A stretch of DNA of 64,000 nt from Sporosarcina ureilytica (lineage in GTDB: Bacteria > Bacillota > Bacilli > Bacillales_A > Planococcaceae): positions 496,001-560,000 of the forward strand of contig NZ_CP017560.1 in NCBI RefSeq assembly GCF_001753205.1, given 5' to 3'. Numbering within the stretch: position 1 is the stretch's first letter; every line of letters starts with the position of its first letter. Both the position numbers and the translations under genes were made by a program. The notes under the pieces were generated by a model. That model searched no databases. It was not told where the DNA came from and saw only the letters and a list, made by a program, of their open reading frames with translations. This document shows, piece after piece, positions 118 through 59,660 of the stretch.

Positions 118-251
118 TGGCTAATCCTTCTTTCTATCAAATAGTTCAATCTATTCTTCTATCGTAACGGATTTTGGAGGGAAAGTCTTTTATCATAGGT
201 TACTATTTCCTAGTAGGTTGCGAAAGCTGGGTAGAAAGCAAGGCTGGGACA

Positions 252-597
252 AAGTACGCAACGTTTCCAAGTAAGAATTCAACACAACAGTAAAAGCATG
301 CAACATCCTTGGAAAAGTACGCAACGCTATGCAAAGTACGCAACGTTTCCAGGAAAGAATTCAACACAACAGTAAAAGTATGCAACGTCCTTGGAAATGT
401 ACGCAACGCTATGCAAAGTACGCAACGTTTCCAGGAAAGAATTCAACACAACGTTAAAAGTATGCAACGTTCTTGGAAAAGTACGCAACGCTATGCAAAG
501 TACGCAACGTTTCCTAGAAAGAATTCAACACAACGTTAAAAGTATGCAACGTCCTTCGAAAAGTACTCAACGCTGGGCAAAATTCAGCAACGCTTAA
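252..597 (+). repeat. Repeat array 1: AAGTA/CAACG units, 82-bp higher-order period
   Basis: This fills most of the 597-base gap between the MMPL gene and the cold-shock gene. Seventeen units starting AAGTA (or AAGAA/AAGCA/AATGTA variants) begin at 252, 273, 294, 315, 334, 355, 376, 397, 416, 437, 458, 479, 498, 519, 540, 561 and about 580. The steps are 21, 21, 21, 19 repeated four times, so the period is exactly 82 bases. Core positions read GTAYGCAACG or GAATTCAACAC. A short dyad TTTCC-A-GGAAA sits at one unit junction. The period is not a multiple of three, so a coding repeat is excluded. Bases 120-250 hold no gene. Confidence 0.95.
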
Positions 598-42832: not shown

Positions 42833-42841
42833 TAATTGTAA

Positions 42842-43266
42842 AAGTAAGCAACGTTATTTTGAAAGTATGCAACGCTGGTGAAAGTACGCAACATTTTCCG
42901 GAGAGTACTCAACATAATTGTAAAAGTACGCAACGTTATTTCGAAAGTATGCAACGTTGGCGAAAGTACGCAACGTTATTTCGAAAGTATGCAACGCTGG
43001 CGAAAGTACGCAACGTTTTCCGGAGAGTACTCAACATAATTGTAAAAGTATACAACGATATTTCGAAAGTATGCAACGCTGGCGAAAGTACGCAACGTTT
43101 GCCGGAAAGTACTCAACATAATTGTAAAAGTATGCAACGTTATTTTGAAAGTATGCAACGCTGGTGAAAGTACGCAACGTTTTCCGGAGAGTACTCAACA
43201 TAATTGTAAAAGTACGCAACGTTATTTCGAAAGTATGCAACGCTTGCGAAAGTACGCAACGTTTCA
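42842..43266 (+). repeat. Repeat array 2: AAGTA/CAACG units
   Basis: Twenty-one units, with AAGTA or GAGTA starts at 42842, 42863, 42882, 42903, 42924, 42945, 42964, 42985, 43004, 43025, 43046, 43067, 43086, 43107, 43128, 43149, 43168, 43189, 43210, 43231 and 43250. All steps are 21 or 19 bases; a 19-base step always follows a unit ending GGYGA or TGCGA. The order is less regular than in arrays 1 and 3. Cores are AAGTAYGCAACG and AGTACTCAACATAATTG. It fills the gap between the ppaC terminator and the end of the convergent Rieske gene. Confidence 0.95.
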
Positions 43267-44775: not shown

Positions 44776-45411
44776 ATGAAAATAGAAGTATGGTCTGATT
44801 ATGTTTGCCCATTTTGTTATATCGGAAAAAGAAGGTTAGAGGATGCAATAAAAGAATCAGGACTGGAAGAAGTTGAAGTCATTTACAAAGCTTTTGAACT
44901 TGAACCTAATTCTATCGCGACATCAGATGAATCGATGATCAAGGTTTTGGCTGAGAAATATAAGATTTCTATCGAAGAGGCAAAGGCGATGACAGATAAC
45001 GTCGCGCTTCAAGCACAATCTGTTGGATTAAATTATGATTTCAAAAAGATGCGTCCTGCGAATACGTTCCATGCCCATCGACTTGCGAAGTTCGCTGAGC
45101 AAGAAGGTCTAGGGGAGCAAATGACCGAACAGCTTTTACATGCTTATTTCATAGAAGGTGAAAAGATCGGTATGTTTGAAACTCTGGTTGAACTAGCGAA
45201 AAAGCTGGGTTTATCTGAAGAGCGAACGAATGAGATGCTACATTCAGAGGAATTTGTAGATGAAGTAAAGGCAGATATTAAAGAAGCGGGGCAGATAGGT
45301 GTACAAGGCGTTCCGTTTTTTGTCATTAATAGAAAATATGCGATTTCTGGGGCACAACCGACTGAAACATTTGTGAAGGCGCTTCAAAAAGCAGCAAATG
45401 AGACAGTATAA
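44776..45411 (+). CDS. DsbA/FrnE-like oxidoreductase
   Basis: A 211-residue thioredoxin-fold protein with CPFC at residues 11-14, helical insertion and cis-proline region GVQGVPFFV near residue 178. It has no signal peptide, so it is cytoplasmic like the FrnE (2-hydroxychromene-2-carboxylate isomerase-related) group. Roles in stress resistance are described for relatives; the partner here is unknown. The start follows AAGAGG. It is a single gene with a terminator, which is followed at once by the TGTCC array. Confidence 0.9.
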   Translation: MKIEVWSDYVCPFCYIGKRRLEDAIKESGLEEVEVIYKAFELEPNSIATSDESMIKVLAEKYKISIEEAKAMTDNVALQAQSVGLNYDFKKMRPANTFHAHRLAKFAEQEGLGEQMTEQLLHAYFIEGEKIGMFETLVELAKKLGLSEERTNEMLHSEEFVDEVKADIKEAGQIGVQGVPFFVINRKYAISGAQPTETFVKALQKAANETV

Positions 45412-45453
45412 AAAACCAGGCATGTCATTTTAAAATGATATGCCTGGTTTTTT
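45411..45453 (+). terminator. Terminator of the DsbA-like gene
   Basis: AAAAACCAGGCAT pairs with ATGCCTGGTTTTT around a second pairing ATTTTAAAAT; ends in a T-run. Confidence 0.92.
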
Positions 45454-45600
45454 GATGTCCTCCGAATTAGTTGTAATGTCCGAGGAATGCAGCAGGATGT
45501 CCGCCCGAATTTGTGTTGTCCGCTGAAACGGTTGTATTGTCCGAGCAACGCCAGAAAATGTCCTCTCAAAGGCTAAGGATGTCCGACCAATTTGTAATTA
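45454..45600 (+). repeat. TGTCC array with 21/19-base steps
   Basis: TGTCC begins at 45456, 45477, 45498, 45517, 45538, 45559 and 45580, steps 21, 21, 19, 21, 21, 21. The usual extension is RATGTCCGA; the remaining positions vary. It is unrelated in sequence to the AAGTA/CAACG arrays but uses the same two step lengths. It lies in a convergent gap, between the terminator of the DsbA-like gene and the end of yceI. Confidence 0.88.
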
Positions 45601-45627: not shown

Positions 45628-46176
45628 TTATTGTGCTGGATTCAGTTGTAAGTCCATTGTCAACGCAATGTCATCGCCGACGAGAACGCCGCCTGCTTCA
45701 AGTACTTGGTTCCATGTTAGGCCAAAATCCGTTCTTGAAATTTTGCCTGTTACTTCAAAAGCTGCAACATCGATACCCCATGGATTTTTCCCTGTGCCTT
45801 CATATTCCGATGTAAATGTAACGGCTTTTGTAACGCCTTTCATCGTCACATCACCGGTTACGTCATACGATGTGTCACCTGTTTTAACAATGTTTGTAGA
45901 AACAAATGAGAGGTGTGGATGATTGTCGACATCGAAGAAATCTGCTGAACGAAGGTGATTGTCTCGATCTTCGTTATTTGTATGAATTGTTGTTACATCA
46001 ATTTTAAAGTCAATTTTCGCGTTTGTTAAATCTTCAGGATTCCCGATTAGTTTCCCCTCGACGCCCGTAAAGCTTCCTCTTACCTTTGAAAACATCATAT
46101 GCTTTACTGTAAAACCGACAGATGTGTGTGCCGCATCGACTACCCATTGGCTTGTTGTTTGAACTTCATTTCCCAT
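45628..46176 (-). CDS. yceI: YceI-family polyisoprenoid-binding protein
   Basis: A 182-residue lipocalin-like beta-barrel protein. WVVDAAHTSVGFTVKHMMF (near residue 11), FDVDNHPHLSF and FGLTWN are typical of the family, which binds polyisoprenoids such as ubiquinone precursors. It lacks a signal peptide and is probably cytoplasmic here. The start follows GGAAAGGGAG. Its promoter is overlaid with two strong palindromes (46225-46265), so tight repression is likely. Confidence 0.92.
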   Translation of the reverse strand: MGNEVQTTSQWVVDAAHTSVGFTVKHMMFSKVRGSFTGVEGKLIGNPEDLTNAKIDFKIDVTTIHTNNEDRDNHLRSADFFDVDNHPHLSFVSTNIVKTGDTSYDVTGDVTMKGVTKAVTFTSEYEGTGKNPWGIDVAAFEVTGKISRTDFGLTWNQVLEAGGVLVGDDIALTMDLQLNPAQ

Positions 46177-58907: not shown

Positions 58908-59003
58908 CCGAAAATCATCCTTTCTTTGGATGAGAGGTATTTACTTGTTAGTATACATCATTTTAATTGTTGATTACTTTGATATTGGGGGGAGTGCCGG
59001 CAA

Positions 59004-59660
59004 AAGTATGCAACGTTACTTCGGAAGTAATCAACGCTGATTGAAAAGTAATCAACGTTTCTGAGAAAGTACGCAACGCCGGCAAAAGTATGCAACGTTA
59101 CTTCGGAAGTAATCAACGCCGATTGAAAAGTAATCAACGTTTTTAAGAAAGTACGCAACACCGGTAAAAGTATGCAACGTTACTTCGGAAGTAATCAACG
59201 CCGATTGAAAAGTAATCAACGTTTTTAAGAAAGTACGCAACGCCGGCAAAAGTAAGCAACGTTACTTCGGAAGTAGTCAACGCTGATTGAAAAGTAATCA
59301 ACGTTTTTAAGAAAGTACGCAACGCCGGCAAAAGTAAGCAACGTTACTTCGGAAGTAATCAACGCTGATTGAAAAGTAATCAACGTTTTTAAGAAAGTAC
59401 GCAACGCCGGCAAAAGTAAGCAACGTTACTTCGGAAGTAATCAACGCCGATTGAAAAGTAATCAACGTTTTTAAGAAAGTACGCAACACCGGTAAAAGTA
59501 AGCAACGTTACTTCGGAAGTAATCAACGCCGATTGAAAAGTAATCAACGTTTTTAAGAAAGTACGCAACGCCGGCAAAAGTATGCAACGTTACTCCGGAA
59601 GTAATCAACGCTGATTGAACAGTAATCAACGTTTCTGAGAAAGTACGCAACGCACGCGCA
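59004..59660 (+). repeat. Repeat array 3: eight exact 82-bp periods
   Basis: Thirty-two units; periods begin at 59004, 59086, 59168, 59250, 59332, 59414, 59496 and 59578. Each period has four units at steps 21, 21, 21, 19, with cores AAGTAWGCAACG, AAGTAATCAACG, AAGTAATCAACG and AAGTACGCAACG. Copies differ at a few bases only (for example CGCCGG against CACCGG, TTTCTGA against TTTTTAA). TTACTTC-G-GAAGTAA is a perfect 7-1-7 dyad at one junction of most periods. It fills the divergent gap between the P1 peptidase and the CadC gene. Confidence 0.97.

Follow-up and report, generated by a model that had tools for sequence, protein, structure and literature searches.

The window analysed here, a 64-kb stretch (C1:496001-560000) of the 3.44 Mb, single-contig Sporosarcina genome, contains a short array of TGTCC units between two convergent genes, one encoding a DsbA-family thioredoxin-fold protein and the other a YceI-family protein (Table 1). 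The array begins immediately past the terminator common to both genes, which was identified by direct reading and is absent from the list of a consensus terminator scan. The TGTCC motifs start at 45456, 45477, 45498, 45517, 45538, 45559 and 45580, with a mean step of 20.67 bp; the seven units and their steps reproduce exactly those given in the earlier note. The array proper occupies 45455-45590 on the plus strand, with a degenerate tail reaching about 45600, and its conserved unit is longer than TGTCC, namely WTGTCCGNNNAA. The pair of flanking genes is syntenic in relatives, where the gap between them keeps a terminator and lacks the array; the window array was therefore either gained in this lineage alone or lost from others. 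Other, non-periodic intergenic inserts occupy the same gap in relatives (L070, L073, L074, L079).

Table 1. Features discussed in the text; positions are those of the window except where C1 is given
Feature	Position	Strand	Description
DsbA-family thioredoxin-fold gene	44776..45411	+	Left neighbour of TGTCC array; Pfam DSBA 1.8e-42
Bidirectional intrinsic terminator	45413..45453	.	Common to the convergent dsbA-like and yceI genes; read directly: AACCAGGCATGTCATTTTAAAATGATATGCCTGGTTTTTT
TGTCC array	45455..45600	+	7 units of WTGTCCGNNNAA + 7-9 bp spacer; steps 21,21,19,21,21,21
YceI-family gene	45628..46176	-	Right neighbour of TGTCC array, convergent; Pfam YceI 1.1e-50
AAGTA/CAACG array	251..592	+	17 units, 82-bp higher-order repeat
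AAGTA/CAACG array	42841..43261	+	21 units, 82-bp and 40-bp higher-order repeats
AAGTA/CAACG array	59003..59652	+	32 units, 82-bp higher-order repeat
IS3-family copies	C1: 6835, 8255, 285483, 2911526, 3338664, 3375857, 3377236 (and 1475486)		

On both strands of the 64 kb, the window array is the sole cluster with at least three TGTCC motifs within 45 bp, and the triple pattern has 5 matches where 100 dinucleotide shuffles gave 0.00. What is said here of the whole genome is based on pattern searches and selected stretches. By these, the only other TGTCC array in the genome lies at C1:3050638-3050691 on the minus strand and comprises three units with steps of 21,21. The reversed triple pattern, used as a control, has 0 matches in the whole genome, and wider gaps (5-35 and 30-60 bp) return only isolated TGTCC triples, in numbers comparable to the control. 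TGTCC arrays with unrelated steps, which the earlier note had named as evidence against its reading, were thus found nowhere in the genome. A 65-bp repeat at C1:161261-161703 was considered as a TGTCC array with other steps and rejected, its repeat unit being devoid of TGTCC; this unrelated intergenic tandem repeat (L260:11261-11703, C1 about 161260-161702) consists of 6.8 copies of the 65-bp unit with a AAGCCGTTCTTCGTGACGGCTT hairpin in each.

Of arrays with AAGTA cores the genome holds 24 or more. All are intergenic, and their steps cycle through 21,21,21,19 to give a repeat of 82 bp. This block is found in 17 of 17 AAGTA arrays, and the occurrence of 19- and 21-bp steps in both TGTCC and AAGTA/CAACG arrays is real. 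Blocks within one array are near-identical (93-95% alike), and the arrays at 2958k and 2996k are clear copies, with 24 of 30 spacer bases in common.

Within the source genome alone, the TGTCC and AAGTA cores look unrelated, as the earlier note had described them, and direct comparison of the window core with the AAGTA core gives only two or three positions in common. The description is not borne out by the sister genomes, in which AAGTGTCCAAC arrays are common and single-base intermediates connect the two cores. Two of 11 positions separate AAGTATGCAAC from AAGTGTCCAAC; of the two single-step intermediates, AAGTGTGCAAC occurs 58 times in sister genome G082, and AAGTATCCAAC is present in G002 and G066. 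In G002, AAGTATGCAAC and AAGTGTCCAAC form adjacent units of one array at a 21-bp step. The form present in the window, TGTCCGNNNAA, has matching arrays in G003, G013 and G015 (ATGTCCGCNCAAT). From these intermediates in other species we infer the kinship of the window array with the AAGTA arrays, and membership of the window array in one diverging array class is well supported. Descent of the TGTCC and AAGTA cores from one array class would already explain part of their shared spacing. We read TGTCC as the probable widespread form of the core and AAGTA as a form apparently derived and amplified in this lineage, and the window array is plausibly a small, old-looking member of a class of intergenic short-core arrays.

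Other genera of the family likewise carry TGTCC arrays with steps of 20-21 bp. At least one triple was found in 56 of the 150 genomes searched, with the reversed-pattern control near zero, although single hits in some genera may reflect chance or coding sequence. The class is patchy, and many Sporosarcina genomes are without such arrays, which implies that the arrays have no essential role. Further array types with the cores GATATGATCGGTT and AAGTGATCATAAA, stepping 20/21 or 20 bp, lie alongside TGTCC-type arrays in the same genomes (L178, L180, L186 and L187 in G066, L209 in G002, L197-L202 in G008). TGTCCGATA arrays are very numerous on contig C1 of G008, a 3.06 Mb genome, where the triple pattern has 118 matches, and they display higher-order repeats near 250 bp (11x21+19).

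The step length varies little within the class. A scan of lags from 12 to 60 bp over array-bearing stretches of 16 genomes returned 21 (903), 19 (187) and 20 (94), followed by 40/42 and nothing else comparable; these stretches were mostly picked for TGTCC or AAGT arrays, and the result describes steps inside such arrays and their neighbours. The scan also turned up the GATATGATCGGTT and AAGTGATCATAAA cores, which were not selection criteria and step by 20-21 bp too. The shared 19- and 21-bp steps extend to six or more core types, drawn from 16 Sporosarcina genomes, and to the TGTCC arrays of other genera; the mean step per array is 20.57 (sd 0.22, n=102). The step mixtures differ by type: some combine 21 with a 19 at every fourth or fifth unit, others 20 with 21, and others have 20 alone or, in G085, 19/21/22. 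Runs of 21s between 19s mostly number 3 (74) or 4 (53) and seldom 0-2 (14), counts that are inflated by block copying.

Spacer sequences do not share this constancy. Between AAGTA arrays, spacer identity is 3.31 of 8 positions in the same phase; it is 3.06 when phases are mismatched (p ~0.01), and composition predicts 3.20. The same-phase excess may be a weak trace of common descent, and the closeness of the same-phase identity to the compositional expectation indicates that substitutions are near saturation while length changes are nearly absent. By this time neutral drift would be expected to have produced some length changes, which argues for a reader sensitive to distance; this is the main argument for such a reader, and it falls short of proof. 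The earlier note had attributed the shared spacing to a common mechanism of formation or a common reader. Spacing is indeed far better conserved than the spacers, which fits either; the premise of unrelated cores did not hold, and no reader protein was identified. The shared spacing is due to descent and probably to constraint. The fixed spacing could be partly plain descent, and its persistence suggests that something reads or measures it.

We give about even chances to an explanation in which all these arrays form one diverging intergenic class whose cores are putative protein-binding sites placed about two helical turns apart and copied as higher-order repeats. A unit consists of about 11-13 conserved bases and a free spacer, with steps averaging about 20.5 bp, or two helical turns, through 21s with a 19 at about every fourth or fifth unit or through 20s and 21s. 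Between species the core drifts (TGTCCGNNNAA, AAGTGTCCAAC, TGTCCGATA, AAGTANNCAACG and others) while the spacing is kept. Each core would bind a sequence-specific protein, with successive cores occupied on one face of the helix, so that the spacing would be under selection and the spacers would not. Arrays grow by local duplication of blocks of four to five units, 82 or 103 bp long, and would now and then give rise to arrays at further intergenic sites. The anatomy and distribution of the arrays, their invariant steps, the continuum of cores, the block duplication and the replication-direction bias of two core types are observed, whereas protein binding, selection on the spacing and any benefit to the cell are what we infer.

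The arrays could instead be neutral tandem repeats, all derived from a single ancestral block that slippage and recombination have spread, with steps that are inherited and read by nothing. This is a serious possibility, if the less probable one. The near-identity of blocks inside arrays and the recognisable copying of some arrays from one another are as expected under it, and block duplications, like the contig ends that fall within arrays, are consistent with slippage and recombination. It accounts poorly for the near-saturated divergence of spacers between arrays whose lengths are still 21 or 19, for the conservation of cores and not of spacers, and for the arrival of different core types at a mean of about 20.5 through unlike mixtures (21/19, 20/21, 20 only). 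Static DNA curvature, produced by A-rich segments phased every two turns without a sequence-specific reader, is improbable: AAAG or AAATAC segments do recur every 20-21 bp in several types, but the GC-rich TGTCCGATA arrays and the TATGNTCGGT arrays keep the step without A-tracts.

The arrays are intergenic and usually follow the terminator of the upstream gene, and the genes near them are ordinary, with no recurring system among them. AAGTNNNCAAC arrays run along the leading strand in a ratio of 65:16, and of 18:1 between convergent genes, and TGTCCGNNNAA arrays in a ratio of 9:0, where the leading strand is inferred from local GC skew, mostly in stretches of 6-20 kb, and arrays from the same genome are only partly independent of each other. 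Gene direction was rejected as the cause of AAGT array orientation, since the bias persists between convergent genes. A replication-direction bias was looked for in TGTCCGATA, TATGNTCGGT and other core types, and none was found.

Mobilisation of the arrays as REP-like elements by a Y1 (IS200/RAYT-like) transposase would suit their patchy, high-copy and intergenic occurrence and the bias of AAGT types to one replication strand. It is nonetheless very improbable, as the occurrence of Y1_Tnp shows no correlation with arrays, being missing in the array-rich genomes G066, G015, G145 and G147 and present in the array-poor G018, G019 and G036, and as the cores are direct repeats and not palindromes. 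Equally remote are transcribed arrays of guide RNAs or structured RNAs (CRISPR-, TIGR- or riboswitch-like), to which the core-spacer layout, a weak pyrimidine-then-purine pattern in the spacers and possible small hairpins in some arrays would correspond, and against which stand the low diversity of spacers recurring within arrays in 82-bp blocks, an Rfam search without a match, the position after terminators and the lack of any protein gene recurring beside the arrays, the window array itself being flanked by YceI and DsbA. RNA or cruciform hairpins formed by a spacer with the next core, for which TTACTTCGGAAGTAA and CTTTCAGGAAAG were suggestive, were rejected, there being no compensatory pairing beyond subfamily mixing.

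One reader of the AAGTA cores does exist. An IS3-family element of 1,294 bp (Pfam rve, HTH_21) is present in 8 copies with identical left ends. Of these, 7 interrupt AAGTA cores at the same point, GCAA/CAACG, duplicate 3 bp of the target and always take the orientation of the array; the eighth is within a gene. Apparent conserved array ends, TCAGTCTACAACG and GGCTAACC, were rejected as such, being the ends of this element inserted in arrays. Diverged relatives of the element were found in no AAGT array of the other genomes. On contig C39 of G009 a divergent member of this IS family adjoins a short array-like stretch (L300:1080-1190), which may represent a further array type, its GGTGGCTC...CTCCGCA units following one another at about 21-22 bp.

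The closest known kind of repeat is the STAR element of staphylococci, of the same general type with another core, spacing and regularity. STAR elements have a 14-mer core, T(G/A/T)TGTTG(G/T)GGCCC(C/A), copies of which are separated by 40 bp or more; their function and mode of spread are unknown, and no fixed helical step is described for them (Purves et al. 2012, PMC3532100). Like them, the present arrays are intergenic interspersed direct repeats at multiple loci, in which a short core is conserved and the spacers are free, being similar within a locus and distinct between loci, and they are patchy within the genus (PMC3532100). They differ from STAR elements in having a core of WTGTCCGNNNAA or AAAGTANNCAACG that drifts between species, in stepping by 19-21 bp in ordered mixtures and in reaching up to 47 units. 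REP/BIME elements are intergenic repeats that serve particular insertion sequences as precise insertion sites (PMC1525189), and the AAGTA cores resemble them in housing the IS3-family element. Unlike REP palindromes, the arrays consist of same-direction tandem cores without a consistent palindrome or covariation between spacer and core.

A different parallel is offered by the direct repeats of plasmid iterons and ParR-type centromeres, which are spaced about two helical turns apart, are bound by protein in phase and sit beside their own rep or par genes. The present arrays have the same two-turn spacing, and protein binding would be a further likeness; in contrast to iterons and centromeres, they lie at dozens of chromosomal sites with no rep or par gene near. 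The window array has the same-direction cores, steps of 19-21 bp with a mean near 20.5 and intergenic position of the class as a whole. No earlier description of these arrays was found in the open-access papers searched by name or by core sequence, and this large array class in Sporosarcina and its relatives is apparently undescribed.

Intergenic tandem repeats in bacteria are usually taken as neutral. In these arrays the distance between cores is conserved, but the spacers vary and so, on a longer time scale, do the cores, a pattern that a distance-measuring reader would be expected to leave. More speculatively, and with a low probability, Sporosarcina and related genera may possess a family of chromosomal DNA-binding proteins that assemble on two-turn cores at dozens of intergenic sites, their specificity changing together with the core between species while the geometry stays fixed; the arrays that run along replication in some lineages would then constitute a polar, dispersed address system of the chromosome. 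If the arrays are neutral, they illustrate the strictness with which the step of an ancestor can be passed on throughout a family. If they are read, the comparison of core families with candidate DNA-binding proteins across the genomes of the family would offer a handle for finding the reader.
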